Below, in pieces: positions 108 through 24,743 of a DNA stretch of 24,743 nt (its first letter is position 1; the number at the start of each line of letters is the position of its first letter). The position numbers were made by a program, and so were the translations under genes. The stretch lies in contig ONVT01000267.1 of assembly GCA_900321365.1 (NCBI GenBank), positions 1-24,743 of the forward strand, read 5' to 3'. Origin of the DNA: an uncultured Eubacteriales bacterium. GTDB taxonomy: Bacteria > Bacillota_A > Clostridia > Lachnospirales > Lachnospiraceae. Under the pieces are notes generated by a model. It was not told the origin of the DNA. It did no database searches and worked only from the letters and a program-made list of their open reading frames with translations.

Positions 108-1334
108 ATGGAAAAAGAAAAATCAACCACTTTTTTAACCACTTTTTCAAATGATTTCAATCATGATGCTGACCATGATTCTATCACATTAATCTGCCCG
201 TGTCATTTCGGACTGGAGAGTGTGCTGAAAAGGGAGATCAATGACCTCGGATATGAGGTTTCGCAGGTCGAGGACGGTAAGGTTTCCTTCGTGGGAGACT
301 GGCAGGCTGTGTGCTATGCCAATGTTTTCCTTCGCTCCGCGGAGCGGGTGCTGGTGAAGGCGGGGGCATTTCGCGCGCAGACCTATGAGGAGCTGTTCCA
401 GGGTACCCGGGCGATTGAGTGGGAGAGGTTTCTGCCCCGCGACGCGAAGTTCTGGGTGGCGAAGGCGGCCAGCGTCCGCAGTACGCTGTTCTCGCCGCGC
501 GATATCCAGTCGGTTATGAAGAAGGCGATGGTGGAGCGGATGTCGCAGAAGTACCATCTTCTGTCATTTCCGGAGACGGGGGCGCAGTTTCCGCTGCGGG
601 TCACAATCCTGAAGGACGAGGTCACGGTCGGGATCGACACGACGGGTATTTCTCTCCACAAGAGAGGCTACCGGCTGCTTACCGCGAAGGCGCCGATCTC
701 GGAGACGCTTGCAGCCGCGCTGATCCTGCTGACGCCATGGAAGAAGGACCGGATTCTGGTGGATCCGTTCTGCGGGTCGGGGACATTTCCGATTGAGGCG
801 GCGATGATCGCATCGAACATCGCGCCGGGGATGAACCGTGAATTTCTGTCAGAGAACTGGGATCACCTGATCGCAAAGAAGCTCTGGTATGATGTGATCG
901 ATGACGCGGGAAGCCGGATCGATGATCAGATTGAGACGGATATCCAGGGGTACGATATCGACGGGGAGGTCATAAAGGCTGCGCGGGAAAATGCGAAGAA
1001 CGCGGGCGTGGACCACCTGATTCATTTTCAGAGAAGGCCGGTGTCAGAGCTGAGCCACTCCGGGAAGTACGGATTCATCATCACGAATCCGCCTTACGGC
1101 GAGCGGCTGGAGGAAAGGGAGGCGCTCCCGGCGCTCTACCGGGAGATCGGGGAGGCGTTCCGCAGGCTGGACAGCTGGTCGGAGTATGTGATCACCTCCT
1201 TTGAGCAGGCAGAGAAGTATATCGGGCGCAAGGCCGACAGAAACCGCAAGATCTACAATGGGATGATCAAGACGTACCTTTACCAGTTTCAGGGGCCGAA
1301 GCCGCCGAAAAGAAACCGGAAAACAGACGCCTGA
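108..1334 (+). CDS. THUMP-domain class I SAM-dependent RNA methyltransferase (RlmL/YpsC-like)
   Basis: Predicted to methylate a guanine at N2 in RNA, probably 23S rRNA, using S-adenosylmethionine, as in the RlmL/YpsC family. The THUMP-containing N-terminal half covers roughly residues 30-175. The Rossmann methyltransferase domain follows, with motif I DPFCGSGTF at residues 219-227 and the catalytic NPPYGER motif at 327-333. The family usually begins close to the ITLICPCHFGLE segment, which here starts at residue 26. The first 25 residues form an odd Ser/Thr/Asp/His-rich extension encoded by AT-rich DNA. ATG at 108 is the only ATG in frame in that stretch and follows AGAGGA at 93-98. The family call is firm; the exact rRNA target is inferred. 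The next gene is only about 60 bases downstream with no clear promoter between, so cotranscription is possible. Confidence 0.9.
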   Translation: MEKEKSTTFLTTFSNDFNHDADHDSITLICPCHFGLESVLKREINDLGYEVSQVEDGKVSFVGDWQAVCYANVFLRSAERVLVKAGAFRAQTYEELFQGTRAIEWERFLPRDAKFWVAKAASVRSTLFSPRDIQSVMKKAMVERMSQKYHLLSFPETGAQFPLRVTILKDEVTVGIDTTGISLHKRGYRLLTAKAPISETLAAALILLTPWKKDRILVDPFCGSGTFPIEAAMIASNIAPGMNREFLSENWDHLIAKKLWYDVIDDAGSRIDDQIETDIQGYDIDGEVIKAARENAKNAGVDHLIHFQRRPVSELSHSGKYGFIITNPPYGERLEEREALPALYREIGEAFRRLDSWSEYVITSFEQAEKYIGRKADRNRKIYNGMIKTYLYQFQGPKPPKRNRKTDA

Positions 1335-1392: not shown

Positions 1393-3228
1393 ATGAGCAT
1401 TCTCAAGGCGGATTCACCGGCAGGCAGCACTGTCGGTATAGTATCAGAGATGTCCCTGCGATACAGTGATGTTAAGATTCCGAACAGATCCCTGCGGAGC
1501 GGCAAAAAAGGCCGCTCTTCTTTGGATGGGGAAGATGCCCATAGCAGGTGGGAGTTCATTTCCCAGGAGGAGCTGTTCGGCACATCACAGCCGGGAATCG
1601 GGAATTTGTCCGGCGTCGCGGACCGCGGAGATGCAGATCTTTCCGAAGATATGAAGCATGGAGTGTCTGAAAAACCTTTTATGGAATCCTCCGACCCGTT
1701 CCAGGATCTGCTGAGGATGACAGGGGAATACTATGTCACGGAAGAACACCGTAGAGATGCGTTCATAAAGCAGGCCAGGCGGATGGAGTCCTATGAGGAG
1801 GAGGGCGGAATCAGCGTTACGTTCCGATACCATGCGTTTGTCGGATATCAGGAGATGGACACGAAGGAACTGCATAACTATTTCCGCTGGCGAACACAGT
1901 TCCGCCGGGACGAGGAGATTCCTCCCTGTGAGAGTTTTCTTTTTCTGCACGCGGCGGAGCTGATCAACCTTATCGGAGTCAGCAGTGAGCAGGAGGCATT
2001 TGACCGGCTTCTTCGACTTGTGAAGACAGAGAAGCCAGGTGTTCTTCAAATAAAGCTTTCCGCTCTCCTGGCCGGATTCGTGATCGCCTGGAATCCCGGA
2101 CCGGATATTGTTCAGGAATACTGTGTCCTCAATCCCGAGCGGGAATCGGCGCTTGTCACGCTGTGCAGTCTTGACGGGTCGGACGATGCGTCTGTCTTCC
2201 GGATGCTCCGGGGTCTGACGGACAGACGCACCCTGAATTCTGAATTTGTCAGGGATGCAGGAGAAGATGTCTGGCGTGTGGCTGCCAGAGTGTTCCGGAG
2301 GGTGTGCAGGATGCAGGAAAAGTCCGGGGTTCCTGTTCTGGCAGAGAGGATTCTTGGCAGGAGGAGATCATTTCCAAAAGACCTGTTTTCCGGGATTCCC
2401 TATGAAACGCGTGTGGAGGAGGGTTACTGTGTGGAGATCAGCCCGGCCACTTCGTATCTGTTCGAAGACGGTCGATGGAAGATGTCAACCTACCCTGCCA
2501 TGCGGGATGACGGGGCCCTCAGGGATCTGAATGCTCTCATGCGGGAATGTGAGCGGGTTCTGCGAAGGAAGTATCATTACAGGAGCCAGCTGCAGGATCG
2601 GATGAAGAACCCGTCTCTTGTCCGGCTGATTGAAGAGGAAGCTGACCGGTGGATGAGGGAGAAGGCGCTGCGCAGCCGGCCTGAGGTCCGCGTGGATCTG
2701 TCGAAGCTTGGTGCCATCCGCGATCTTGCGGCAATTACGCGGGAGCGTCTGCTTGAGGGGACGGAGGAAGGCGCTGAGGCGAAATTAGATTTGCAGCTGA
2801 ACTCTCCTGATATGTCCGGCATGCAGGAGGAAGATTCACAATCCTCGCAGGACTTGCACTACACATTGAAAGGCGCAAATCAAGATGGTCCGTCAGAGGC
2901 TGCTCTGCGTGTGGATGTACGAGATGTTCTGCCGGAGAATGAATCAGAAGATAATCTTTATGAGTCCGAAGAATATCCGTCTGAGACAGAGGGGCTATTC
3001 ACTGCGGCGGAACGTGAATTCCTGAGGCTGCTTCTTGCAGGGAATGGCAGTGCCGGTGCAGCGTTTTTCCGGAGCCACAGGATACTGCCGTCTGCCTTTG
3101 TGGATGAGATCAACGAGAAGGCTTATGATGAGATCGGGGATTCTATCGTGGAAGAAGATGAAGATAGCTGGCATCTGGTGGAAGACTATGTTGAGGATGT
3201 CAGAGAGCTTCTGGATGAACCCGGATGA
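1393..3228 (+). CDS. TerB-N / TerB-C domain protein, first gene of a predicted DNA-processing or defence module
   Basis: About 611 residues. Residues about 95-300 resemble the TerB-N domain, with the signature NYFRWRTQFRR followed by FLFLHAAELINLIG (about residues 162-195). The last 75 residues (about 535-611) resemble TerB-C: INEKAYDEIGDSIVEEDED followed by an acidic helix. A long charged region joins them, and the first ~90 residues look disordered. There is no signal peptide or membrane segment, so it is cytoplasmic. Comparative genomics of tellurium-resistance (Ter) genes has linked proteins with these two domains to P-loop ATPases and helicases in predicted DNA-processing systems; the ATPase and helicase follow here. 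The frame opens at TTG 1384, but that codon abuts GAAGGA (1378-1383), whereas ATG 1393 is correctly spaced, so 1393 is chosen. No catalytic residues are evident; a scaffold or sensor role is inferred. Confidence 0.75.
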   Translation: MSILKADSPAGSTVGIVSEMSLRYSDVKIPNRSLRSGKKGRSSLDGEDAHSRWEFISQEELFGTSQPGIGNLSGVADRGDADLSEDMKHGVSEKPFMESSDPFQDLLRMTGEYYVTEEHRRDAFIKQARRMESYEEEGGISVTFRYHAFVGYQEMDTKELHNYFRWRTQFRRDEEIPPCESFLFLHAAELINLIGVSSEQEAFDRLLRLVKTEKPGVLQIKLSALLAGFVIAWNPGPDIVQEYCVLNPERESALVTLCSLDGSDDASVFRMLRGLTDRRTLNSEFVRDAGEDVWRVAARVFRRVCRMQEKSGVPVLAERILGRRRSFPKDLFSGIPYETRVEEGYCVEISPATSYLFEDGRWKMSTYPAMRDDGALRDLNALMRECERVLRRKYHYRSQLQDRMKNPSLVRLIEEEADRWMREKALRSRPEVRVDLSKLGAIRDLAAITRERLLEGTEEGAEAKLDLQLNSPDMSGMQEEDSQSSQDLHYTLKGANQDGPSEAALRVDVRDVLPENESEDNLYESEEYPSETEGLFTAAEREFLRLLLAGNGSAGAAFFRSHRILPSAFVDEINEKAYDEIGDSIVEEDEDSWHLVEDYVEDVRELLDEPG

Positions 3229-3264
3229 GTAACCCCCGCTTTTGGCGAGGAGGAAGGAAGAAGG

Positions 3265-4782
3265 ATGGCACAAACACAGCAGAAGAATCAGGATGCCCGA
3301 AAGGAGCGGAAAGTACCGAGAAGAGTGGCGCAGGCCGTCATCAGTTCCCTGAAGGGTGGTGTGGTGCCCAGGATCGGGCTTCCTTATATAACAGTGGGCC
3401 GGAGCAGTGAGATCGAGGCCCTGCTTCGCGATGTTGAGATCATCGGCGACGGCGGCGCTTCGTTCCGTTTTATCGTCGGGCGGTACGGAAGCGGGAAGAG
3501 CTTCCTGCTTCAGACAATCCGGAACAATGTGATGGACAAGGGATATGTCGTCATGGACGCGGATCTGTCTCCGGAGCGGAGGCTTCAGGGCTCCCGCGGG
3601 CAGGGGCTTGCGACTTACCGTGAACTGATCGGGAATCTTGCTACCAGGACAAAGCCCGAGGGCGGCGCGCTGACTCTTGTACTGGAGCGATGGATTGCCG
3701 CGGTGCAGCAGGCGGTTATCGAGGAGGAGGGTCTGGAGCCGGAGACAAAGGCCGCCGGAGGTCCCTGGGATCCAGAGCCAGAGACAAAAGCCATCGGCGG
3801 AACCGGGGGCCTGGCGCCTGATTCGAAGATAAACGGCAAAGGTAAGGTTCCTGAGCCGGGGAAGCATTCGGACAATGGTGCAAAGCCTCCGGCTTCACAG
3901 AGATCGGAATTTGACACGGCGGTCGAGCGCCGGATCCGCACGGTGGCGCGCTCGCTGAGCGAGATGGTGCACGGCTTTGACTTTGCGCAGCTGATCACGC
4001 TCTACTACCGCGGTTTCCTTGCCGACGATGACGAGATCCGCGCCAAAGTGGTCAGGTGGTTCCGCGGCGAGTATATGACCCGTACCGAGGCAAGGCAGGA
4101 TCTGGGGGTAAATGCCATCATCACGGATGACGACTGGTATGAGTACCTGAAGCTGTTCGCGATGTTTTTCCGGCTTGCCGGCTACAAGGGGATGCTGATC
4201 TTTGTGGATGAGCTGGTGAATATCTACAAGATTCCGCAGTCGGTTGCCAGAAACAACAATTATGAGAAGATCCTGACCATGTACAATGACACTCTCCAGG
4301 GGAAGGCGCAGTATCTGGGCATCCTCATGAGCGGGACCCCGCAGTGTGTCGAGGACACGAGACGTGGCATCTACAGCTATGAGGCGCTCCGCTCCAGGCT
4401 TCAGGAAGGAAAGTTTTCCAAAGAAGGCGCCCGGGATCTGCTGTCTCCGGTCATCCGTCTGGAACCGCTCTCCTCGGAGGAGATGATGGTCCTGTGTGAG
4501 AAGCTCGCGGACATGCATGCAGGCCTGTACGGCTATACACGCACCATCGGAACGGGGGATCTTGTAACATTCATCCGGATCGAGTACGGACGGATCGGAG
4601 CGGATACCCACATCACCCCGCGAGAAGTCATCCGGGATTTCATTGAGCTCCTGGACATTCTCTGCCAGCATCCTGAGACAGACGTAGCCGGACTGCTGAA
4701 TTCCGATGAGTTCTCCTACGCGAAGTCAGAGGCGCTCGGAGGAGAGGAAGTCAGCGAGGAGTTCGCGGATTTCGTTCTTTGA
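3265..4782 (+). CDS. BREX-type ATP-binding protein (BrxC/BrxD-like P-loop ATPase, DUF2791 family)
   Basis: A 505-residue AAA+-like ATPase. The N-terminal segment (SLKGGVVPRIGLPYITVGR, residues 28-46) precedes Walker A GRYGSGKS at residues 72-79. Walker B is LIFVDEL at 311-317, and a sensor-like strand ending in SGTP lies at 356-359. This layout matches the ATP-binding proteins of BREX systems, closest to BrxD. A low-complexity Gly/Pro/Lys/Glu-rich insert at about residues 155-212 contains an imperfect 13-residue tandem repeat (EPETKA..GG twice). Start ATG 3265 follows GAGGAGGAAGG at 3247-3257. It begins 36 bases after the TerB gene and precedes the helicase, the same ATPase-helicase pairing seen as brxD-brxHI in type 2 BREX. 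ATP-driven remodelling of a DNA-bound complex is inferred; the family call is strong. Confidence 0.8.
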   Translation: MAQTQQKNQDARKERKVPRRVAQAVISSLKGGVVPRIGLPYITVGRSSEIEALLRDVEIIGDGGASFRFIVGRYGSGKSFLLQTIRNNVMDKGYVVMDADLSPERRLQGSRGQGLATYRELIGNLATRTKPEGGALTLVLERWIAAVQQAVIEEEGLEPETKAAGGPWDPEPETKAIGGTGGLAPDSKINGKGKVPEPGKHSDNGAKPPASQRSEFDTAVERRIRTVARSLSEMVHGFDFAQLITLYYRGFLADDDEIRAKVVRWFRGEYMTRTEARQDLGVNAIITDDDWYEYLKLFAMFFRLAGYKGMLIFVDELVNIYKIPQSVARNNNYEKILTMYNDTLQGKAQYLGILMSGTPQCVEDTRRGIYSYEALRSRLQEGKFSKEGARDLLSPVIRLEPLSSEEMMVLCEKLADMHAGLYGYTRTIGTGDLVTFIRIEYGRIGADTHITPREVIRDFIELLDILCQHPETDVAGLLNSDEFSYAKSEALGGEEVSEEFADFVL

Positions 4783-4808
4783 GCAGGCAGTCAGCCTTGC
4801 CTGTTTTT
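4783..4808 (+). terminator. Terminator-like hairpin between the ATPase and helicase genes
   Basis: Bases 4783-4789 (GCAGGCA) pair with 4798-4804 (TGCCTGT, one G-U pair) around an 8-nt loop, and the stem runs into TTTT at 4805-4808. It starts directly after the ATPase stop codon. The stem is short, so termination would be partial, lowering helicase expression relative to the two upstream genes. No other terminator is visible within the three-gene block. Confidence 0.5.
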
Positions 4809-4858
4809 CCTCCGGATGTACCAGATTCTCAGGCAAACGTTAATACAGAGGGCGGCAA

Positions 4859-7384
4859 ATGGACATTTTTTCAAGATATTCCCCTGAGATCCAGGACTTT
4901 ATCTACAGGAACCGGTGGGAGAATCTGCGGGCAGTGCAGGTTGCGGCGGGTGACGCGATCTTCAACACGACGCAGAATGTGCTTTTGTGTGCCTCCACCG
5001 CCTCCGGGAAGACCGAGGCCGCGTTTTTCCCGATCCTGACCGAGTTTATCGAGAATCCGCCCGCGTCGGTGGGCTGCCTCTATATCGCTCCTCTGAAAGC
5101 GCTGATCAATGACCAGTTTATCCGACTGAATGACCTGTGCGAGGAGTGTGAGATTCCGGTCTGGCACTGGCATGGGGATGTGTCGGCTTCACATAAACGG
5201 AAGCTTCTGAAGAAGCCTTCCGGTATTCTTCAGATCACCCCGGAATCTCTGGAAGCGATGCTGATGCACAAGCATGGCGAGATCCCCAGACTGTTCGGTG
5301 ATCTTCGATATGTTGTGATCGACGAGCTCCATTCCCTGCTCAGGGGCGACCGTGGCGGGCAGTGTATGTGCCTGATCCAGCGGCTCGGCCGGATGGCAGG
5401 CGTGAATCCGAGAAGGATCGGACTGTCGGCGACGATCGGAGATCCCCAGGAGGCCGGAAGGTTCCTGGCGGACGGCAGCGGACGGAGCACCGTAGTTCCT
5501 GAGATTCAGGCAAAGGGGATGCGGTGGAGGCTGTCGATGGAGCATTTTTACAATGCGTCGCCCCAGGCATCGGACATTGTCGAGAATCCGGAAAAACCAG
5601 TCTGGATGGGAGGCATTCCTTCTGCCGCAGGATCTTTTCTGAGCACCGGGGCCGAACCGGGAGGAAATGTTGCCTCAGTACGCAGCGAATCCAAACCGGC
5701 TGAAAAACCTGCTTCAGAGAGCATTGAATCCAGACTGGATTGCAACCCGGACATTACGAGTTTCATCCATCTGTCCCCATCACAAAAAAAGGACAGGAAA
5801 GAAGAAACCAGAGAAAACAGAAAAGCAGAAAACAAAGAAGGGGAACCTGCCGAAGATACCACGGTCGATCTTGTCTTCTCAGACGATGGCAACCGCGCCC
5901 CGACAGACAAGGCGCCGTTTGCGGCGGATCCCGGGATCGGCTACATCTTCGAGCACACGAGGGGCAGGAAATGCCTCGTATTCAGCAATTCGAGGGAGGA
6001 GTGCGAGGAGGTCACGACCACGCTGCGCGCCTACTGCGAGGCGAACCACGAGCCGGACCGCTTCCTCATCCACCACGGAAACCTCTCCGTCTCCTTCCGG
6101 GAATCGGCGGAGGACGACATGCGCGATGAGGGCAGCACGCTGACGACCTGCACGACAGCGACGCTGGAGCTGGGAATCGATATCGGGAAGCTGGAGCGGG
6201 CATTTCAGATTGACGCGCCGTTTACCGTGTCGTCCTTCCTGCAGAGGATGGGCCGGACCGGCCGGCGGGGAGAGCCGTGCGAGATGTGGTTTGTCATGCG
6301 CGAGGAACACGCGGAGCCGCGCGATCTTCTGCCGGACAAGGTGCCGTGGAGGCTGCTGCAGGGGATCGCCCTTGTTCAGCTCTACCTGGAGGAGCGCTGG
6401 GTCGAACCGCCCAGAAATGGAAGAATGCCGTTCAGCCTGCTGTACCACCAGACCATGAGCACCCTTGCCGGCAGCGGCGAGATGTCTCCTGCGGAGCTGG
6501 CATCAAGAGTGCTGACGCTCGCTCCTTTCAGGCGGATCACGAAGGAAGACTTCCGTGTTCTCTTGAACGACCTGATAAAGAAAGACCATATCCAGCGGAC
6601 AGAGAACGGAGGCCTGATTGTAGGGCTTGCGGGAGAGCGGATCACGAACAATTTCAAGTTCTACGCGGTCTTTCAGGAAAATGAGGAGTACAGTGTCCGA
6701 TGCGAGTCACAGGAGATCGGGACGATTGTGAAGCCGCCGCCTATCGGGGACCGCATCGCCATAGCCGGTCATGTGTGGGTGGTCGAGGAGGTAGACCGCA
6801 CGCACCATCAGGTTTACTGCCACATGGTGAAGGGGCGTGTGCCGGCGTATTTCGGCGACGAGCCGGGAGACATCCACACGAAGATCCTGCAGAAGATGCG
6901 GGAGGTGCTGACCGACACAAAGTCCTACCCCTATCTTCTGAAAAATGCGCAGGCGCGTCTTCTCTCAGCACGCATGGACAGTGCCCACAGCGGGATCGGG
7001 TACCGCCCGCTTATCTGCCTGGGAGGGAAGATGTTCTGCCTGACGCCGTGGCTGGGCAGCTACTCATTTCTGGCGCTGGAGCGTTTCCTGCGCATCCGCT
7101 GCGCGAAGCGGCTCTCCCTGAAGGGATTCAACTCGGTGCGGCCGTATTTCATCCAGTTTACGATGGACGTGAATCCGAGGGAATTCGTGGAGATCACGCA
7201 GGAGGAGGTGCGCGCCGGGATCGATCCGATGGAGCTGCTCTACCCGAAGGAGGTGCCGGTATTCGACAAGTATGACGACATTCTCTGCGCGGACCTGGTA
7301 CGGAAGGGATTTGCGCTGGGAGTGCTTGACGTCGAGGAGATGAAGGAGTGCGTCCTGAGCTGGACCGTCCAGCAGGTGGTGTAA
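4859..7384 (+). CDS. DEAD/DEAH-type superfamily II helicase, Lhr/BrxHI-like
   Basis: An 841-residue ATP-dependent helicase, presumably acting on DNA. The motifs are complete and in order: a Q-like residue near 27, motif I ASTASGKT at 45-52, motif II DELH at 155-158, motif III SAT at 190-192, a motif IV region VFSNSREE near 374-381, motif V TTATLELGIDIG at about 432-443, and motif VI QRMGRTGRRG at 462-471. A charged low-complexity insert (about residues 240-350) separates the two RecA lobes. About 370 residues follow, as in Lhr-type helicases. A four-cysteine DUF1998-like cluster, as in YprA/MrfA, is not seen, so an Lhr/BrxHI-type assignment fits better. ATG 4859 follows GAGGG at 4848-4852. 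It is the third gene of the TerB/ATPase/helicase block. Helicase identity is certain; the biological role is inferred. Confidence 0.9.
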   Translation: MDIFSRYSPEIQDFIYRNRWENLRAVQVAAGDAIFNTTQNVLLCASTASGKTEAAFFPILTEFIENPPASVGCLYIAPLKALINDQFIRLNDLCEECEIPVWHWHGDVSASHKRKLLKKPSGILQITPESLEAMLMHKHGEIPRLFGDLRYVVIDELHSLLRGDRGGQCMCLIQRLGRMAGVNPRRIGLSATIGDPQEAGRFLADGSGRSTVVPEIQAKGMRWRLSMEHFYNASPQASDIVENPEKPVWMGGIPSAAGSFLSTGAEPGGNVASVRSESKPAEKPASESIESRLDCNPDITSFIHLSPSQKKDRKEETRENRKAENKEGEPAEDTTVDLVFSDDGNRAPTDKAPFAADPGIGYIFEHTRGRKCLVFSNSREECEEVTTTLRAYCEANHEPDRFLIHHGNLSVSFRESAEDDMRDEGSTLTTCTTATLELGIDIGKLERAFQIDAPFTVSSFLQRMGRTGRRGEPCEMWFVMREEHAEPRDLLPDKVPWRLLQGIALVQLYLEERWVEPPRNGRMPFSLLYHQTMSTLAGSGEMSPAELASRVLTLAPFRRITKEDFRVLLNDLIKKDHIQRTENGGLIVGLAGERITNNFKFYAVFQENEEYSVRCESQEIGTIVKPPPIGDRIAIAGHVWVVEEVDRTHHQVYCHMVKGRVPAYFGDEPGDIHTKILQKMREVLTDTKSYPYLLKNAQARLLSARMDSAHSGIGYRPLICLGGKMFCLTPWLGSYSFLALERFLRIRCAKRLSLKGFNSVRPYFIQFTMDVNPREFVEITQEEVRAGIDPMELLYPKEVPVFDKYDDILCADLVRKGFALGVLDVEEMKECVLSWTVQQVV

Positions 7385-7483
7385 GCCCGCTGCCACCCGA
7401 GACTTCAAAAGAAGAGGATTTCGTGGTATGTTTGTAATAGATGGGCAGACGGCCCGGAAGAACCATGCAGGGAGGTGCGGCAA

Positions 7484-8263
7484 ATGATTGATTATTCGGA
7501 AGGATCAGGAAAACTGTATCATATTCAGGTGGCGCCCGGCGAGGTCGGAAGATATGTCATTCTTCCCGGAGACCCGAAACGCTGCAGGAAGATTGCGGAG
7601 TACTTTGATGATCCGGTTCTGGTGGCGGACAACCGGGAGTATGTGACTTATACGGGAACCCTGGACGGTGTGAAGGTTTCCGTGACTTCCACAGGAATCG
7701 GCGGCCCGTCCGCATCCATCGCGATGGAAGAGCTGAAGCGCTGCGGAGCGGACACCTTCCTGCGCGTGGGAACCTGCGGCGGTATGCAGCTTGACGTATG
7801 CGGCGGCGATCTCGTAATCGCGACCGGGGCTGTCCGCGCGGAGGGCACCAGCAAAGAGTACGCGCCGATCGAGTATCCGGCGGTTGCGGACTATGACGTG
7901 ATCACTGCCATGAAGGAGGCGGCGGACAGTCTCGGATGCAGATCCCATCTGGGCGTCGTGCAGTGCAAGGACTCTTTCTACGGGCAGCATGAGCCGGAGG
8001 TCAAACCGGTGGGATACGATCTCGTGAACAAATGGAATGCCTGGATCCGGTGCGGATGCCTGGCCTCCGAGATGGAGTCGGCGGCAATATTTATTGTCGC
8101 GTCATGCCTGAAGGTGCGCGCGGGCACGGTCCTGCTGACCATCGCGAACCAGGAGAGGGCAAAGGCCGGCCTGGAAAATGAGCAGGTGCATGATACCTCG
8201 ATGGCGATCAAAACGGCGGTCGAAGCGATCCGCATCCTGATTAGGAAGGACGCGGCGAAGTAA
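7484..8263 (+). CDS. udp: Uridine phosphorylase
   Basis: Cleaves uridine with phosphate to uracil and ribose-1-phosphate in nucleoside salvage. The 259-residue protein has the nucleoside phosphorylase-I signatures: the phosphate-binding VILPGDPKR near the N-terminus, [26 protein letters not shown], and EMESAAIF near the C-terminus. The GTCGGMQ and GQHEPE segments favour uridine phosphorylase over purine nucleoside phosphorylase. The frame opens at GTG 7475, but that codon lies inside the ribosome binding site GGGAGGTG (7470-7477); ATG 7484 is the correctly spaced start. It is followed by cytidine deaminase and deoxyribose-phosphate aldolase, forming a pyrimidine nucleoside catabolic cluster. 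No clear promoter is visible in the 99-base gap after the helicase, although one is expected. Confidence 0.93.
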
Positions 8264-8310
8264 TCAAACTGGTATCATTGCATGCCCCGGTGCGGCAGAA
8301 AAGCGTCAGA

Positions 8311-8398
8311 AAAACGGACGCAGCAGTTTGGAAGGAGAAGAAGTGCCGGAAAAACGGGCGCTGCAGATTGGAAGAAACGGACGTTTCAGACTGGAAGG
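8311..8398 (+). repeat. Three imperfect ~24-nt repeats in the leader of the cytidine deaminase gene
   Basis: Three related units begin at 8311, 8351 and 8375. Each reads roughly AAACGGRCG, then a short variable stretch, then CAG..TGGAAG. Spacing is 40 bases between the first two and about 24 between the last two. Each unit ends in a GGAAG-type sequence that could bind the ribosome; only the third (8393-8401) is well placed for ATG 8407. The repeats sit in an open frame that continues into the gene. Confidence 0.5.
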
Positions 8399-8406
8399 AA
8401 GACAGG

Positions 8407-8841
8407 ATGGAAAAAGCAGGAATCAGCAGTGACATGATTGAAAAGCTGTGCGGCATAGCAGTGAAGATGCGGGAGAAAAGCTACACGCCTTACTCACACT
8501 TTCGTGTGGGAGCCGCGCTGCTTGGCAGGGATGGACAGATTTTTACCGGCTGCAACGTGGAGAACGCGGCTTATTCAGTCTGTACCTGTGCGGAGAGGAC
8601 CGCTTTTGTGAAGGCTGTCAGTGAGGGTGTGCGCGAATTCACCGCGCTTGCGATCTGCGGCGGACATGAGAGAGGCGCTCTGGAATACTGTCTTCCCTGC
8701 GGCGTCTGCCGTCAGGTGATGGCAGAATTCTGCGAAGGGCATTTCCCGGTTTATCTGGCAAAGTCCGCGGACGATTATATCATGTACACGCTCGACGAAC
8801 TGATGCCGAACCGCTTTACGCCGGAGAGTTTGAAACTTTGA
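8407..8841 (+). CDS. cdd: Cytidine deaminase (tetrameric zinc type)
   Basis: Deaminates cytidine and deoxycytidine to uridine and deoxyuridine, feeding the adjacent phosphorylase. The 144-residue length fits the homotetrameric class. Zinc ligands are Cys61 (in CTCAERTA), Cys98 and Cys101 (PCGVCRQ); the catalytic proton shuttle is Glu63. The substrate-binding CNVENAAYS segment (residues 49-57) precedes them. The open frame reaches back to a TTG at 8278, which would add 43 residues. That part is Lys/Arg-rich, repetitive and absent from the family, whereas ATG 8407 has GGAAGGAAG 6 bases upstream, so 8407 is chosen. The gene lies 143 bases after udp and 149 before deoC. Confidence 0.92.
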   Translation: MEKAGISSDMIEKLCGIAVKMREKSYTPYSHFRVGAALLGRDGQIFTGCNVENAAYSVCTCAERTAFVKAVSEGVREFTALAICGGHERGALEYCLPCGVCRQVMAEFCEGHFPVYLAKSADDYIMYTLDELMPNRFTPESLKL

Positions 8842-8849
8842 CTTGATTA

Positions 8850-8865
8850 CGCAGCAAAGGCTGCG
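8850..8865 (+). other. Short hairpin after cdd
   Basis: CGCAGC (8850-8855) and GCTGCG (8860-8865) form a perfect 6-bp stem with an AAAG tetraloop. No T tract follows, so it is unlikely to be a complete intrinsic terminator. It could protect the 3' end of a processed cdd message or belong to the deoC leader. Confidence 0.4.
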
Positions 8866-8944
8866 GGACCGTCGAGAGAAGATGTTGGTAAACCATCACC
8901 ATTAATGGGGTGGGAGTGTCACGGTGAGGAGTAATCATCGTCTC

Positions 8945-8970
8945 AGGAACTGTTTTATTTGACAGCTCCT
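8945..8970 (+). promoter_or_regulatory. Hairpin immediately upstream of the deoC ribosome binding site
   Basis: AGGAACTGT (8945-8953) pairs with ACAGCTCCT (8962-8970) with one A-C mismatch and an AT-rich 8-nt loop. The stem ends about 5 bases before the deoC ribosome binding site GGAGGAAGGGG. It may terminate weakly or modulate translation; no known riboswitch was recognised in the leader 8842-8990. Confidence 0.35.
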
Positions 8971-8990
8971 TTGATGGAGGAAGGGGTATC

Positions 8991-9638
8991 ATGGAGACTA
9001 CCGGTATCGCAAAAATGATTGACCATACGCTGCTGAAGGCTGCGGCTACGAGTACCGATATTAAGAGAATCTGTGCCGAGGCGCGTGAATACGGGTTTGC
9101 CTCTGTCTGCGTCAACAGCTGTTATGCGAAGCTGGTGACACAGGAGCTAAAGGGAACGGATGTGAAGACGTGCTGTGTGGTCGGGTTTCCGCTGGGCGCG
9201 ATGTCATCCGGGGCAAAGGCATATGAAGCGCGGTGCGCCGTAGAGGACGGAGCCGGCGAGATCGACATGGTGATCAATGTGGGCGCCCTGAAGGAAGGAA
9301 ATGACGCTTTCGTGGAAGAGGATATCCGCGCCGTTGTCAAGGCAGCAGAGCCTGCGATCGTAAAGGTCATCATCGAGACCTGCCTGCTCACGGATGAGGA
9401 GAAGGTGCGCGCCTGTACGCTGAGCGAGAAGGCCGGCGCCGCCTTTGTCAAGACCTCTACCGGGTTTTCGACGGGCGGCGCAAATGCGCATGATGTCGCT
9501 CTGATGAAGAGGACGGTGGGAGATCGTCTTCGGGTGAAGGCGTCCGGAGGCATCCACACGCCGCAGCAGGCGAGGGAGCTGATCGAAGCCGGCGCGGACC
9601 GGATCGGCGCGAGCAACGGCGTGGCGCTGCTTGGCTGA
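8991..9638 (+). CDS. deoC: Deoxyribose-phosphate aldolase
   Basis: Cleaves 2-deoxyribose-5-phosphate to glyceraldehyde-3-phosphate and acetaldehyde, completing deoxynucleoside breakdown. The 215-residue TIM-barrel protein has the Schiff-base lysine Lys154 in [12 protein letters not shown], the second active-site lysine Lys183 in RVKASGGI, and the catalytic aspartate Asp92 in EIDMVINVG. Length matches the short bacterial class. ATG 8991 follows a strong GGAGGAAGGGG site. Together with udp and cdd it gives a route from pyrimidine nucleosides to central metabolism; a phosphopentomutase gene would also be needed and is not in the window. Confidence 0.95.
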
Positions 9639-12889: not shown

Positions 12890-13984
12890 TCAGTTTTTCC
12901 TGTACTCGATCGAGGAACACTTGAAGTTGTCCTTGCCTTCTTCCTTCACCAGGTACAGCAGCTTGTCCGCAGCGGCGGACAGGCTTTCATAATCCGGATA
13001 GGAGCCCAGGTTGATGATGCAGCCGATGCTTGCGGTTACAAAATCATCGCCGGTTTCATCCAGCTTGATTTTGTGGAGCGCCTCCTTTGTCTTCTCCAGG
13101 CGGTCAATCACATGATGGATATCCGCCATGCCGATCGCGTAGACGATGAACTCATCTCCGCCCATACGCATGACAACGTCCATCTCACGGAAATTCTCCT
13201 GCAGGCAGTGGGCGATCTGTCTGAGCGTCTCATCACCCGCCGCGTGTCCGTACTCGTCATTGATGTGCTTGAAGTTATCAATGTCAACCAGCATGAATGC
13301 GCCGGTGATTCCGTTCGCCACATAGCTTCTGATCAGATGCTCGCCGCCGCGGCGGTTGTAAATGCCCGTCAGCGCGTCATGGTCCGCCTTGTCGGTGGCC
13401 GTGAAGCTGGATTCCATGAAGGTGATACGTTCACGGATCATCCGTTCGGAAAGAAACAGTGCAGCGCACACACACGCAGCAAGATAAATCATGTCCAGAG
13501 CAGGATAGACAGGCTTCCTGAAAACAAGATCCACAACCACGAAGAGCACGGCAAACACAAGAGTCAGTATCAGAATACGGCCCCATGCGTCCCGGATCAG
13601 AAGCGGCAGAGTAAGGAGGAAGAAATAGAACAGGACACAGGGATAATCCGAAGGCTCTCCCAGGCTCATGATCAGGGACCAGGAAAGCAGCAGACAGATC
13701 CAGATATAGAGCGTGTATGTCCCGTTTTTGATCATCTCCTTCTTATAACCGATCAGCAGTGCCACAGACACACTGAAAAACAAAAGATATTCCAGTGTAT
13801 GCGAGCCGGAATGAAAGTGGCTGCCTGCCGCAAGATTATAGAGGAAACTGATCAGACTGATCACTACGCCGGTGATCAGCAGAAAACACAGAGCCCTTCC
13901 GTTTTCTTTTTCAAAATCAATACGAAATCCCCTGATCTTACCAGGAAACAGGAACTCTTTGATTTTATTTCCCGTGGAATTCAT
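12890..13984 (-). CDS. Membrane-anchored diguanylate cyclase (GGDEF)
   Basis: Makes the second messenger cyclic di-GMP from two GTP. The 364-residue protein has six predicted membrane helices in the first ~190 residues, beginning with CFLLITGVVISLISFLYNLA and ending with MIYLAACVCAALFL. A GGDEF domain follows. The active-site motif GGDEF is intact (RMGGDEFIVYA), and the product-inhibition motif RxxD (REMD) lies five residues before it, so the enzyme is probably active and feedback-controlled. The membrane part has no recognised sensory domain. The frame extends upstream to 14062, but GGAAGGAG on the minus strand sits 6-7 bases before ATG 13984, which gives the start. A candidate promoter lies at 14097-14125. 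c-di-GMP control of surface behaviour is known for the family; the target here is not visible. Confidence 0.92.
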   Translation of the reverse strand: MNSTGNKIKEFLFPGKIRGFRIDFEKENGRALCFLLITGVVISLISFLYNLAAGSHFHSGSHTLEYLLFFSVSVALLIGYKKEMIKNGTYTLYIWICLLLSWSLIMSLGEPSDYPCVLFYFFLLTLPLLIRDAWGRILILTLVFAVLFVVVDLVFRKPVYPALDMIYLAACVCAALFLSERMIRERITFMESSFTATDKADHDALTGIYNRRGGEHLIRSYVANGITGAFMLVDIDNFKHINDEYGHAAGDETLRQIAHCLQENFREMDVVMRMGGDEFIVYAIGMADIHHVIDRLEKTKEALHKIKLDETGDDFVTASIGCIINLGSYPDYESLSAAADKLLYLVKEEGKDNFKCSSIEYRKN

Positions 13985-14096
13985 TGATTTCTCTCCTTCC
14001 TGGACGTTCCAGGTTGTCCAAACAGAGGGCAGCTTTGAGTATGGTAAATCTGCGGTTTGCAAATGATCGATTCACCGGCAGAATAGCACCGCTTAT

Positions 14097-14125
14097 ATTG
14101 TAGTATAAATGCGCAGTGGTTTCAA
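14097..14125 (-). promoter_or_regulatory. Vegetative promoter for the diguanylate cyclase gene
   Basis: On the minus strand TTGAAA (14125-14120) and TACAAT (14102-14097) are exactly 17 bases apart. Transcription would start near 14090, giving an untranslated leader of about 105 bases before ATG 13984. This is the best sigma-A-type match in the 210-base gap between the two minus-strand genes. Confidence 0.55.
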
Positions 14126-14194
14126 GGACAGACCTGAGTCTCCGTTAGTTCTCCGTAAGCGGTGGATCCTGGCGACGCTCCTGCTGATGGCATC

Positions 14195-15346
14195 TCACGG
14201 AGACGGTCCCTCAGCCGCAGGGGCAGCGGTGTGACTTACAGCGGCCCAGAGGGAGAGATCTGAGACATAGTCCCCGTCATCCATCCAGGGGGTGGTCAGA
14301 GACTCGTCGCGCCAGATCTCATATCCGGGCGGAAGGGTGATGGAAACAGGGTCGCCCTTCAGCGCGGTGAGAGAGAAAACCTGCTCCTCCTGTGTTCCGG
14401 GATCCCGGGTGAGCGTCACTGTCCGAAGATCTCCGGCATCCCAGAAGTCTTCCGGATCCATATGCTGCATCAGACCCGTGAGACCGGTCTGTACAAACGG
14501 GGTCATCCCCTGATCGTAGGAGTATCTGATTTCTCTCACATTCGTTACGCCCTGGCACGCGTCAGAGGGATTGTGCAGGGAAATCCGGACTGTCTGCGCC
14601 TCGAGCGTCGCCGGATCCAGAAGACAGGCACAAGAATAGAAGCCTCCTTCCTCCGGTTCTTCCAGATCAAGCCGAAGAATGGAGGGCTCCGTCAGCTGAG
14701 TGATGACAAAGACGGAATTCTCTGTCCGGTAGACCGACAAAAGCGTCTCCTCTATTGTTTCTTCCCCCAGAATGACCGGGTCTGCCTGCGGGACACGGTA
14801 CGCGTTTCCTGATGCGTTCAGGAAACAGACAAACCGCATAGACCGGGTATAATCCTCGACGCAATCATCTTCGCCGCGGATCAGGAGCCGGAGCTCCTCC
14901 AGGCCGGGAGACCAGTCATCAGAATAGTACAACCCGTTTTCAGCGTAAAAAAGGCTGTACTCCTCCATCTTCTGCGTCTGATCAGAATACAGGGCAAAGA
15001 CGGCAGTGAGATCTTCGTGACGATCCCACAGTGTCCGGGCGGAGTTTGCTTCGTATACTTCTTTGAGGAACATGACGCACTCATCCGGGGTCATCTTTGC
15101 AGCCTCCCCGACGGGAGTATCCTTTTTCAGGCTATCCTCGATTCCGGGAGGAATCTCGAAGGCCGTTTCCGTTTCCATCAAAGCTTCGGTTTCGGTCTCC
15201 GCCTTCTTCTCCGTTCCATCCAGCTCTTCCGACACCGGTCCGGCAGAAGGGTCCGGGATGACCGCATCATCCGCGACGACCAGGGGAGCGCAGGCGAAGA
15301 CAAGAAGACAGAGAGCGCACAGGGCGCGCAAGAGTCTGTGAAACAT
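14195..15346 (-). CDS. Secreted protein of unknown function
   Basis: I do not recognise this 383-residue protein. It begins with a clear Sec signal (positive MFHRLLR, hydrophobic ALCALCLLVFACAPLVVA, likely cleavage near VVADD). A Glu/Thr-rich low-complexity linker covers about residues 40-65. The rest is acidic and looks globular, with a few cysteines. Cys19 lies inside the hydrophobic core, but the surrounding CAPLV does not fit a lipobox well, so a lipoprotein is unlikely. ATG 15346 follows GGAAGGAAAC on the minus strand. It lies upstream of the diguanylate cyclase on the same strand, but a promoter is predicted between them, so a shared operon is not assured. The opposite-strand gene begins about 120 bases away, giving a divergent control region. 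Confidence 0.75.
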   Translation of the reverse strand: MFHRLLRALCALCLLVFACAPLVVADDAVIPDPSAGPVSEELDGTEKKAETETEALMETETAFEIPPGIEDSLKKDTPVGEAAKMTPDECVMFLKEVYEANSARTLWDRHEDLTAVFALYSDQTQKMEEYSLFYAENGLYYSDDWSPGLEELRLLIRGEDDCVEDYTRSMRFVCFLNASGNAYRVPQADPVILGEETIEETLLSVYRTENSVFVITQLTEPSILRLDLEEPEEGGFYSCACLLDPATLEAQTVRISLHNPSDACQGVTNVREIRYSYDQGMTPFVQTGLTGLMQHMDPEDFWDAGDLRTVTLTRDPGTQEEQVFSLTALKGDPVSITLPPGYEIWRDESLTTPWMDDGDYVSDLSLWAAVSHTAAPAAEGPSP

Positions 15347-17142: not shown

Positions 17143-17592
17143 ATGAGTACTGAGGCAATCTTCTGGCTGGTTGTGATGGTCCTGTTCCTGATTCTCGAGA
17201 TGGTCACCATCAGCCTTGTATCAATCTGGTTTGTCGGGGGAAGCCTTGCAGCATTCCTGGTTTCTTTTGTGGTAAATGAACTATGGATCGAGGTCCTTGT
17301 ATTCCTGGGTGTCTCACTGCTGCTGCTGTTCCTGCTCAGGCCGATGGCAAGGAAGTTTGGCGTGAAGCAGAAGGATCAGATCCGGAGCGGCGCGCAGGCA
17401 CTGGTCGGGAAGCGGGCCGTCGTGACGGAGCATATCGATAATCTGCACGCGAAGGGTGCGGTTCAGGTAAACGGGCAGTTCTGGAGCGCGAAGTCTCTGG
17501 ATGATGACACGACGATAAGAAAAGACAGCGTTGTTATCATCAAAGAGGTCGACGGGGTGAGACTCGTTGTGGAAGAGCTGAAGAAGGCATGA
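17143..17592 (+). CDS. NfeD-like membrane protein
   Basis: A 149-residue membrane protein partnering the SPFH protein encoded next. Residues about 5-66 hold three hydrophobic helices (AIFWLVVMVLFLILEMVTIS; LVSIWFVGGSLAAFLVSFVV; WIEVLVFLGVSLLLLFLL). Residues about 83-145 form the OB-fold NfeD domain (LVGKRAVVTEHIDNLHAKGAVQVNGQFWSA). This is the short NfeD form without the serine-protease domain. NfeD-SPFH pairs are a well-known conserved gene pair thought to organise membrane microdomains. ATG 17143 follows AAGGGGGG. The 130-base gap after moaC contains two hairpins (17020-17046 and 17099-17113) and TATAAA at 17125, but no confident promoter. Confidence 0.92.
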   Translation: MSTEAIFWLVVMVLFLILEMVTISLVSIWFVGGSLAAFLVSFVVNELWIEVLVFLGVSLLLLFLLRPMARKFGVKQKDQIRSGAQALVGKRAVVTEHIDNLHAKGAVQVNGQFWSAKSLDDDTTIRKDSVVIIKEVDGVRLVVEELKKA

Positions 17593-17641
17593 TTCGGCAT
17601 GAGGTGTCACCGGCTTTAGCCGGTGACGGAGTCCTGATGCC
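17592..17641 (+). repeat. 50-nt hairpin repeat, copy 1
   Basis: Identical over 50 bases to 17667-17716. It folds into two stacked stems. The outer one pairs CGGCATGAGG with CCTGATGCC, with a G-G mismatch and its final pair lost in this copy. The inner perfect 9-bp stem is GTCACCGGC/GCCGGTGAC with a TTTA loop. A one-sided bulge GGAGT lies on the 3' strand between them. The copy begins at the last base of the nfeD stop codon. Confidence 0.9.
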
Positions 17642-17666
17642 ATGGTGGCCGCCGAAGGCTGACGGA

Positions 17667-17716
17667 ATTCGGCATGAGGTGTCACCGGCTTTAGCCGGTG
17701 ACGGAGTCCTGATGCC
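17667..17716 (+). repeat. 50-nt hairpin repeat, copy 2
   Basis: A perfect second copy of 17592-17641, separated from it by a 25-nt spacer (repeat period 75). In this copy the outer stem is complete because the next base is G. It is followed by the conserved tail that runs into the SPFH gene ribosome binding region. Confidence 0.9.
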
Positions 17717-17757
17717 GACCGGATTGAATCAGATATAAACCTGCGTTTACGGAGGAG
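17694..17757 (+). promoter_or_regulatory. Leader element shared with the phosphodiesterase gene
   Basis: The first 25 bases match 9683-9707 at 22 positions, including the blocks GGTGACGGAG and CTGATGCCGA. The tail TCAGATATAAACCTGCGTTTAC-GGAGGAG matches the same region before the phosphodiesterase gene with a few small gaps. In both places the element ends in a ribosome binding sequence near a start codon. Shared ancestry or shared control is inferred; no known riboswitch was recognised. Confidence 0.55.
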
Positions 17758-17783
17758 ATAAAAACAGGAAGAGGAGGAGAATT

Positions 17784-18740
17784 ATGAACATCAGTATCGG
17801 CTTGATAATAGGAATCATCCTGGTGATCCTGATTGTGTGGATTATCATGTCCAGCATCCGGATTGTCCCGCAGGCGACGGCGGTAATTGTTGAGAGGCTC
17901 GGCGCCTATCAGGCAACCTGGGATGTGGGACTTCACCTGAAGATGCCTTTCATTGACAGGATCGCGAAGAGAGTAATCCTGAAGGAACAGGTTGTGGACT
18001 TTCCGCCGCAGCCCGTGATCACGAAGGACAACGTCACGATGCAGATCGATACGGTTGTGTTTTTCCAGATCACGGATCCGAAGCTGTATACCTATGGCGT
18101 CGAGAATCCCATCATGGCAATCGGGAACCTGACTGCCACCACGCTGAGAAACATCATCGGCGACATGGAACTCGACGAGACGCTTACATCCCGCGAGGTC
18201 ATCAACACGAACATGAGGGCCACTCTTGACCAGGCGACGGATCCATGGGGCATCAAGGTCGGCCGTGTCGAACTGAAGAACATCATCCTTCCGGAGGACA
18301 TCAAGAACTCGATGGAGCGGCAGATGAAGGCTGAACGTGAGAGACGTGCCGCAATCCTGACGGCAGAGGGTGAAAAGAAGTCCGCGATCCTGACGGCGGA
18401 AGGAAAGAAAGAGTCCGCAGTCCTCGAAGCGGAGGCGGAAAAGGAAGCCGCAATCCTGCGCGCGGAGGCGGCCAAGGAGAAGATGGTCCGTGAGGCGCAG
18501 GGCCACGCGGAAGCGATCCGCACCACGCAGCAGGCGACCGCAGACGGTATCCGGATGATCAAGGAAGCCGGTGCGGATCAGGCGGTTCTGGCCCTCAAGA
18601 GCCTTGAGGTCTGGCCGACAGTGGCAAACGGCAAGGCCACGAAGATCATCATTCCCAGTGAGATCCAGAACATCGCCGGGCTGATCAAGTCCATCCAGGA
18701 GGCCGCTTCTGACAAAATGATGGATCCGGACGCAGAGTGA
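17784..18740 (+). CDS. SPFH/Band 7 (stomatin-like, QmcA-type) membrane protein
   Basis: A 318-residue membrane-anchored scaffold protein. One N-terminal helix (about residues 5-23) is followed by the SPFH domain (about 25-185), with typical segments RLGAYQATWDVGLHLKMPFID and NVTMQIDTVVFFQITDP. Residues 190-233 contain four 11-residue repeats of the form AxLxAEGEKKS (nucleotides 18351-18482), an Ala/Glu/Lys-rich hendecad coiled coil that drives oligomerisation. The C-terminal part resembles QmcA and slipin proteins. It pairs with NfeD upstream; such proteins are linked to membrane microdomain organisation and envelope stress. ATG 17784 follows GAGGAGGAG. A second ribosome-binding-like GGAGGAG lies about 25 bases further upstream inside the shared leader. 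Confidence 0.94.
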   Translation: MNISIGLIIGIILVILIVWIIMSSIRIVPQATAVIVERLGAYQATWDVGLHLKMPFIDRIAKRVILKEQVVDFPPQPVITKDNVTMQIDTVVFFQITDPKLYTYGVENPIMAIGNLTATTLRNIIGDMELDETLTSREVINTNMRATLDQATDPWGIKVGRVELKNIILPEDIKNSMERQMKAERERRAAILTAEGEKKSAILTAEGKKESAVLEAEAEKEAAILRAEAAKEKMVREAQGHAEAIRTTQQATADGIRMIKEAGADQAVLALKSLEVWPTVANGKATKIIIPSEIQNIAGLIKSIQEAASDKMMDPDAE

Positions 18741-23247: not shown

Positions 23248-24743
23248 ATGGGAGAGCAGAATCAGAACACAAAGAATCAGCAGAGTGATCAGCAGAAAAC
23301 GCAGGATATGAACCAGCTGCTGAAGGTGCGCCGCGAAAAGCTGGCGAATCTCCAGGCAGAGGGGAAGGATCCGTTCGTCATCACGACCTACGACCAGACA
23401 CACCACGCACCGGACATCAAGGATCATTTTGACGAGATGGAAGGCCAGGAGGTTTCGATCGCCGGACGCATGATGAGCAAGCGTGTGATGGGCAAGGCAT
23501 CCTTCTGTAATGTACAGGACCGCTATGGAAACATCCAGGTCTATGTCGCCCGGGACAGCATCGGGGAAGAACCCTACAAGGCGTTCAAGAAGATGGACAT
23601 CGGCGATATCGTTGGTGTGAAGGGAACAGTTTTCCGCACAAAGATGGGAGAGATTTCAGTTCATGCCTCTTCCCTTACGCTTTTGTCGAAAAACCTGATT
23701 CCGCTGCCGGAGAAGTTCCATGGCCTGCAGGACACAGACATTCGTTACCGCCAGAGATACCTGGATCTGATCATGAACGCGGAGGTGCGTGACACCTTCA
23801 TGAAGCGCTCGCAGATCATCAGCGAGATCCGCAGGTTCCTCGATGACCGCGGCTTCATGGAAGTGGAGACGCCGATGCTGGTCAGCAACGCGGGCGGAGC
23901 TGCGGCGCGCCCATTTGACACGCATTACAATGCGCTCGATGAGGACGTCAAGCTGCGGATCAGCCTTGAACTCTACCTCAAGCGCCTGATCATCGGCGGG
24001 ATGGAGAGAGTCTACGAGATCGGCCGTGTCTTCCGGAACGAAGGCGTCGATACACGCCACAACCCGGAGTTCACGCTCATGGAGCTTTACCAGGCATATA
24101 CGGACTACAATGGCATGATGGAGCTGACAGAGTCCATGTTCCGTCATCTGGCGAACAAGGTCTGCGGAAGCGCGAAGATCACCTACCAGGGAACAGAGAT
24201 CGACATGGAGAGCCCGTTCAGACGCCTGTCCATGATTGACTCCGTGAAGGAATACGCCGGAGTTGATTTCAGTCAGATCCATACGGATGAGGAGGCGAAA
24301 GCGGCAGCGAAGGAAAAGGGTGTCGAATTCGAAGAGCACCATAAGAGAGGCGACATCATCAACCTGTTCTTCGACGAGTTCTGCGAGGATAAGATGATCC
24401 AGCCGACCTTCATCATCGACCATCCGGTCGAGGTGTCTCCGCTGACCAAGAGAAAACCCGATGACCCCTCGATGGTGGAACGCTTTGAGCTGTATATCTA
24501 CGGACGTGAGATGTGCAACGCTTATTCCGAGCTGAACGATCCTATTGACCAGAGGGAACGATTTAAGGCGCAGGACGCTCTCGCGGCGGCGGGCGACGAG
24601 GAAGCGAACCATACGGACGAGGACTTCCTCCACGCCATGGAACTGGGCATGCCTCCCACCGGCGGCATCGGCTACGGCATCGACCGCCTCGTGATGCTGC
24701 TTACAGACAGCGCCGCCATCCGGGACGTGCTGCTGTTCCCGAC
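23248..24743 (+). CDS. lysS: Lysine-tRNA ligase (class II), 3' end beyond the window
   Basis: Charges tRNA(Lys) with lysine. The 498 codons present run from ATG 23248, preceded by AGAAAGGA, to the window edge with no stop. A Gln/Asn-rich start is followed by a helix, the OB-fold anticodon-binding domain (VSIAGRMMSKRVMGKASFCNV), then the class II core. Motif 2 is VYEIGRVFRNEGVDTRHNPEF, a later segment is MCNAYSELNDP, and motif 3 is PPTGGIGYGIDRLVMLL. The visible part ends at DVLLFP, close to the usual catalytic-domain end, so only a few residues may be missing unless a C-terminal extension exists. No T-box leader is seen in the 50 bases before it. Confidence 0.96.
   Translation, partial: MGEQNQNTKNQQSDQQKTQDMNQLLKVRREKLANLQAEGKDPFVITTYDQTHHAPDIKDHFDEMEGQEVSIAGRMMSKRVMGKASFCNVQDRYGNIQVYVARDSIGEEPYKAFKKMDIGDIVGVKGTVFRTKMGEISVHASSLTLLSKNLIPLPEKFHGLQDTDIRYRQRYLDLIMNAEVRDTFMKRSQIISEIRRFLDDRGFMEVETPMLVSNAGGAAARPFDTHYNALDEDVKLRISLELYLKRLIIGGMERVYEIGRVFRNEGVDTRHNPEFTLMELYQAYTDYNGMMELTESMFRHLANKVCGSAKITYQGTEIDMESPFRRLSMIDSVKEYAGVDFSQIHTDEEAKAAAKEKGVEFEEHHKRGDIINLFFDEFCEDKMIQPTFIIDHPVEVSPLTKRKPDDPSMVERFELYIYGREMCNAYSELNDPIDQRERFKAQDALAAAGDEEANHTDEDFLHAMELGMPPTGGIGYGIDRLVMLLTDSAAIRDVLLFP

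Follow-up and report, generated by a model that had tools for sequence, protein, structure and literature searches.

A complete Shango system, most likely resident in its Lachnospiraceae genus since the common ancestor, is retained where its operon has been broken

Three consecutive genes on the forward strand of a 24,743-nucleotide stretch of DNA from an uncultured Lachnospiraceae bacterium (contig ONVT01000267.1; the whole stretch is hereafter the window) constitute, on the basis of their sequences, a complete and already described Shango anti-phage system, encoding SngA, SngB and SngC. Their identity is thereby settled and is not new; the interest lies in the manner of life of the system, which is resident and vertically inherited in its genus, appears able to work in trans and has a fast-evolving SngA. 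We consider it probable that the system has been a permanent, vertically inherited resident of the chromosome since the ancestor of the genus and that it still serves as an immune machine.

The original prediction, of three same-strand genes for a TerB_N/TerB_C protein, a BREX-family P-loop ATPase and a superfamily 2 (SF2) helicase, is borne out by intact open reading frames (ORFs) in the order A-B-C and by the corresponding Pfam domains and motifs. The first gene, sngA (1393..3228, + strand), encodes a protein of 611 residues from the ATG at 1393, which profile searches place in the TerB families, as had been supposed, with both TerB_N (E 3.2e-12, 47.1 bits) and TerB_C (E 1e-15, 58.7 bits) above the Pfam cut-off. 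Although the frame ending at 3228 could start at TTG 1384 or ATG 1393, the ATG at 1450, giving 592 residues, is the more likely start because 15 of 20 aligned homologues begin there. A purine-rich ribosome site (gaggaggaagg) precedes sngB (3265..4782, + strand), whose 505-residue product is a P-loop ATPase matching the Pfam BrxC_BrxD family (PF10923, E 1.7e-162), with a Walker A motif GRYGSGKS and a Walker B-like LIFVDEL. The third gene, sngC (4859..7384, + strand), encodes an Lhr/BrxHI-like SF2 helicase of 841 residues with the Pfam DEAD and Helicase_C domains, a WH_Lhr match below the cut-off and the core motifs ASTASGKT, DEL, SAT and GRTGRRG. Across the genus the Walker A motif is identical in 16 of 17 aligned SngB sequences, the 17th (G015) being truncated by a contig end, and motifs I and III are identical in all 18 aligned SngC sequences. 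A low-complexity insert occupies approximately residues 160-210 of SngB, with similar low-complexity stretches in SngA, and a hydrophilic low-complexity insert of variable length (approximately residues 237-349) separates the two RecA domains of SngC.

All three PADLOC Shango models match, in keeping with the earlier proposal of a candidate anti-phage system. The SngA model covers residues 32-610 (E 3.5e-48), the SngB model scores 611.9 bits (E 1.8e-184) against 142.8 bits for the BrxD model, and the SngC model scores 901.8 bits (E 1.1e-271) against 392 bits for the BrxHI model, margins of about 469 and 510 bits, respectively. The suggested likeness to BrxD and BrxHI is also genuine, in that a PF10923 ATPase is paired with an Lhr/BrxHI-like helicase. 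However, SngB attains only 143.9 bits against the cut-off of 350 for the NCBIfam BrxD equivalog NF033438, and SngC only 196.3 against 850 for the helicase equivalog TIGR04121 and 166.5 against 849 for NF010338, which we take to be the Lhr-type helicase model. Scores so far under the cut-offs indicate a kinship of families to type 2 BREX as opposed to membership in it. The accessible part of the description of Shango (PMC10250203) names E. coli and P. aeruginosa as bearers of the system and a TerB-like protein, a DEAD/DEAH helicase and an ATPase as its components; hence, the genes are not the new stand-alone module they had been taken for. The same portion of that report records that the Shango of PA14, placed in P. 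aeruginosa PAO1, lowers plating 10-100 fold for many though not all of the phages tested, and that the effect in E. coli is about 10-fold against two phages (PMC10250203). In the available text of a published phylogeny, the antiphage helicases SngC, BrxHI, DruE and DpdJ are grouped in an SF2 clade that is potentially distinct (PMC12278908).

The expectation that the three genes occur together is upheld by a survey of 299 genomes of the family (thresholds: SngC E < 1e-200, SngB E < 1e-80, SngA E < 1e-10), in which SngC was found in 30 genomes, SngB in 31 and SngA in 31, the same 30 holding all three (Fisher p ~2e-40, uncorrected for kinship). Eight of the 299 genomes have SngC matches with E of ~1e-62 to 1e-73 in frames of ~1400 residues, which were excluded as other helicases. 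Two of the 30 carriers (G003, G013) belong to the genus of the window. Among the remaining 28, 24 read as contiguous A-B-C, with A truncated by a contig end in G140, and four are rearranged: A is elsewhere in G063, C is elsewhere in G268, A is inverted behind BC in G279 and C lies ~8 kb from AB in G317. An inverted A behind BC recurs in G320 and G321, found via the genus of G100, in which SngB is present in 5/5 genomes in two arrangements; in the neighbouring genus of G063 it is present in 3/11, the negatives being smaller genomes. Two further genomes carry what might be orphans or remnants, namely a lone SngA-like gene in G150 (C13:332260) and a lone SngB-like gene in G215 (C53:10459), and a stop codon within the SngC match of G071 (C289:9423-11603; L063, L141) could reflect decay of Shango or an assembly error.

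Within the genus of the window, the nearest SngC relatives (81-83% identity in the best segment) come from uncultured Clostridia and Lachnospiraceae assemblies, several bearing RUG names that presumably denote the rumen, and the sampled genomes include a named gut isolate, Porcincola intestinalis (L014, G001). SngC is present in 17 of the 19 genomes, SngA in 17 and SngB in 16, with all three in 16, an estimate of fixation limited by the draft state of the genomes: rpoB itself, as a yardstick of completeness, was found in 16/19, 15 above the cut-off. G017, without B and C, has a deoD contig which starts 231 bases ahead of deoD, and in G020 a contig start coincides with the absence of A and B, rlmL being missing too. 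The site is likewise conserved, SngBC adjoining deoD/PNP in 15 of 17 genomes: in 11 deoD/PNP follows downstream of SngC, and in 4 it lies upstream of SngB in divergent orientation. Of the two exceptions, G011 has its deoD on a separate contig, not next to SngBC, and G015 yielded no deoD match. In two genomes SngA falls into two separate frames (L072 2604-4366 in G003; L068 5348-7130 in G006), through either assembly error or decay.

As a rule, defence systems come and go rapidly, and their genes stay together as operons so that they can move as a unit. The genes are linked as A-B-C in the window, G002, G003, G006, G012, G018 and G019. SngA is clearly apart from SngBC in G001, G013, G005, G008, G014 and G016, and G011 and G015 also look split, judged by the content of shorter contigs; G007 and G009 were left unscored, as their A and B genes lie at contig ends and could be neighbours. 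G005, G014, G008 and G016 have SngBC in divergent orientation to deoD, with a gene behind it that by eye is GlmS-like, and SngA at a different place; SngA remains near rlmL and apparent molybdate transporter genes in G005 (131-kb contig) and G014 (129-kb contig). In Porcincola intestinalis (G001), whose SngA is thus unlinked to SngBC, and in G013, SngA has a neighbourhood different again, the respective contigs measuring 116 and 48 kb for SngA and 142 and 27 kb for SngBC. Both halves are nevertheless present in 8/8 split genomes; such retention after operon breakage implies action in trans of the two. Because A-B-C is contiguous in most relatives in the family, we treat linkage as the ancestral state, in which case SngA separated from SngBC at least twice: unordered parsimony requires 2 changes, whether G011 and G015 are counted or not, and irreversible splitting requires 2 separations without G011 and 3 with it. 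A search of the titles and abstract beginnings of the open-licence literature, supplements being outside its scope, found no report of a split or vertically fixed Shango.

The phylogenetic trees speak for common descent with the chromosome. The tree of SngB+C shares 10 of 11 splits with the rpoB tree over 14 shared genomes, and the SngA tree of 13 genomes agrees with rpoB in 7 of 10 splits and with SngB+C in 8 of 10, the discordant splits being weakly supported (bootstrap under 80). On account of this congruence, the ancestor of the genus most likely already possessed Shango, which has since been inherited with the chromosome. Its components have evolved at unequal rates: by tree distance SngA changes 8.4x and SngB+C 2.7x as fast as rpoB (median ratios over pairs of 13 genomes), and the median distance of SngA is 3.2x that of SngB+C. 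In the clade of the window, identities (medians over the pairs available for each gene, the pair sets differing between genes) are 53% for the TerB_N core and 62% for the C-terminal domain of SngA, as against 85-87% for SngB, 90-95% for SngC outside the insert, 94% for rpoB and 89% for deoD. Since these folded parts of SngA differ too, disorder accounts for part only of its divergence. In another genus, 18% of aligned SngA residues differ between G318 and G319, as compared with ~2% in SngB and ~3% in SngC. The ratio of nonsynonymous to synonymous substitution rates (dN/dS, by the NG86 method) over six pairs is 0.15-0.37 for A, 0.02-0.16 for B and 0.035-0.10 for C, values which are approximate because dS is near or over 1 in several pairs. 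Purifying selection is equal in a split and a linked pair, with A/B/C ratios of 0.19/0.06/0.04 for G005-G014 and 0.21/0.05/0.07 for G012-G018.

Structure prediction indicates a disordered N-terminus and linker in SngA, residues 1-99 and 470-532 having a predicted local distance difference test score (pLDDT) under 50, and a C-terminal domain which is winged-helix-like by both model and fold match. A fold search of the PDB with the SngA model gave no match under E 0.001, and neither the SngA nor the SngB profile found a PDB sequence up to E 1. For SngC, the nearest solved structure is the Lhr of M. smegmatis (5v9x), both by sequence and by the fold of a weak model, with MrfA/YprA of B. subtilis (6znp) also among the closest by the same two measures.

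These features can be assembled into a tentative mechanism. SngC, as an Lhr/BrxHI-like SF2 helicase, would be the motor acting on DNA, and SngB, an AAA+-type ATPase of the BrxC/BrxD family, might load or license it there, much as BrxD may load or activate BrxHI according to a suggestion in the accessible part of PMC12839542. SngA, with its TerB domains and winged helix, could be the sensor or adaptor that decides when or where this happens. The two halves would work in trans with no need for co-transcription, and the fast-changing SngA would be the subunit facing a partner or inhibitor that itself changes, the motor pair SngBC being well conserved. By analogy with the homologues in other bacteria, the system presumably acts against phages in this lineage as well.

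The most serious alternative is a domesticated Shango turned to housekeeping, i.e., chromosome maintenance through repair or the processing of forks or the nucleoid, with defence secondary or lost. Several observations weigh against a continuing immune role and in favor of this possibility: retention across the genus, trees congruent with rpoB, survival of the system after operon breakage, metabolic and core-gene neighbours, SngC domains about as conserved in the clade of the window as rpoB (90-95% versus 94%, on different pair sets and with the insert excluded), and nearest solved structures that are Lhr and MrfA, helicases thought to serve chromosome maintenance. The proposed permanence is itself countered by G010, which is without A, B, C, rlmL and a close deoD, yet has rpoB, and may represent a real loss of Shango. 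The original prediction had held that universal, vertically inherited presence at this locus would argue for housekeeping; such presence is nearly attained in the genus (16/19 genomes, 15/17 at the site, rpoB-like trees), which by that rule leans to housekeeping, but fails in the family, where only 30/299 genomes carry the system and there is hence no general need for it. Further, SngB+C and SngA outpace rpoB by the above-noted factors, and the tested homologues act against phages, in what is available of PMC10250203. Vertical descent alone leaves the choice between defence and housekeeping undecided, given the patchiness of the family, the 3/11 in the genus of G063, the plasmid relatives and the fast SngA. 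On balance, housekeeping appears possible, though clearly less probable than a resident system that remains an immune machine. A bolder reading, which we regard as doubtful, is that an anti-phage machine carried elsewhere by plasmids and islands has been domesticated in this genus as core chromosomal equipment, has had SngA split off from the motor genes at least twice without loss of either, and now guards or repairs the chromosome of its own cell, while SngA is still racing phage or plasmid inhibitors.

A different reading is that of an ordinary mobile cassette recently acquired at this site. The patchy family distribution and the occurrence of relatives on plasmids would fit it: among 72,556 plasmid records 681 contain SngB relatives, none reaching 60% identity and some perhaps BrxD-type kin; the two plasmid loci examined have A-B-C with genes overlapping or nearly abutting, and in one of them, on a conjugative Roseovarius plasmid, Shango has AbiE genes nearby and PD-(D/E)XK and UvrD-type genes behind. 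In 50,697 phage records there was no SngB match at 1e-20, and eight viral contigs hold distant SngC relatives (29-44% identity). This reading is nonetheless very unlikely, being largely contradicted by the shared site of SngBC in 15/17 congeners, the trees that follow rpoB and the lack of mobile genes among the scanned genes of the window. Less credible still is a remnant or minimal type 2 BREX reduced to BrxD and BrxHI without PglX, PglZ and PglW, which, despite the shared ATPase family and related helicase, is contradicted by the missed BrxD cut-off, the better-scoring SngB and SngC models, the absence of other BREX genes among those scanned in the window and a TerB gene in 30/30 family genomes holding B and C.

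Outside the genus, the flanks of 24 family loci comprise 93 ORFs matching 128 Pfam families, the commonest 25 of which are metabolic, transport and signalling families with few for repair. Nineteen PADLOC families match these ORFs at E 1e-20, each in at most 3, as single-gene matches that leave the picture not clean; one ORF beside the G107 locus is transposase-like by eye, so these flanks are not free of mobile genes. If repair genes make up about 2% of genes, approximately 3 among the 48 nearest neighbours are unconvincing, and a DNA-repair neighbourhood was rejected as a candidate; those seen are one MutS and one IPP transferase by Pfam among the 93 ORFs, and UvrA and DinB by eye. At one locus (L153 4108-13896, G103) SngABC lies between MutS-like and IPP transferase (MiaA-like) genes on the same strand, which is unusual for a defence system. 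A general link to deo genes was likewise rejected, as outside the genus only G268 has such genes close by, with a PNP relative a few genes off in G234. In G268 (L102 4959-9961), SngA-SngB stands directly behind PNP and DeoC relatives and a phosphopentomutase-like gene (by eye), a resemblance to the neighbourhood of the window that is probably chance.

In the window itself the system is flanked, as originally described, by an RlmL-like rRNA methyltransferase gene upstream (108..1334, + strand) and the nucleoside salvage genes PNP/deoD, cdd and deoC downstream (7475..9638, + strand; PNP, cytidine deaminase and DeoC by Pfam), which lie outside the system and mark the conserved SngBC site. The scan covered 20 of 21 genes picked from the ORF list, leaving out a partial gene at 23248-24741; three were scanned with NCBIfam only and two had no Pfam match. 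None of the 20 matched PglX, PglZ, an integrase, a transposase or a methyltransferase besides RlmL, and no mobile gene or other defence system was found among them, PADLOC having covered the three sng genes only. On the - strand at 12893-15346, a diguanylate cyclase (GGDEF) gene adjoins one for a 383-residue protein without a Pfam match, and GGDEF-type relatives occur near Shango in a few other genomes as well. At 17143-18740 an NfeD-like gene precedes an HflK/stomatin-like one; pairs of this type are known as membrane-protease partners.

A genus in which Shango is near-universal, follows the species tree and survives the breakage of its operon amounts to a natural experiment: the split genomes imply action of SngA and SngBC in trans, and the rates reveal which subunit changes fastest. 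Porcincola intestinalis supplies a named isolate in which to ask whether Shango serves the cell beyond phage defence.

Compared with known systems, SngC resembles Lhr (5v9x) and MrfA/YprA (6znp) as its close solved structures and differs from them in missing the curated helicase cut-offs; to our knowledge, these are repair helicases without TerB and PF10923 partners. Type 2 BREX has the same pairing of a PF10923 ATPase with an adjoining Lhr-like SF2 helicase (BrxD and BrxHI), whereas the ATPase in the window has a TerB partner and falls short of the BrxD cut-off, with no PglX, PglZ, PglW or BrxC among the 20 scanned genes. The closest counterparts are the Shango systems of E. coli and of P. 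aeruginosa PA14 (cDHS1), which share the three families, the A-B-C order and matches to all three PADLOC models. The phage-assay evidence belongs to these, the system of the window being known from its sequence. On account of low-complexity inserts, the SngC frames are long, 777-903 residues in the genus and 721-870 in the family outside it, as against 720 positions in the PADLOC model. Unlike the Shango of E. coli and PA14, that of the window stands at a metabolic locus, is nearly fixed and vertically inherited in its genus, and has had its operon broken in part of that genus.
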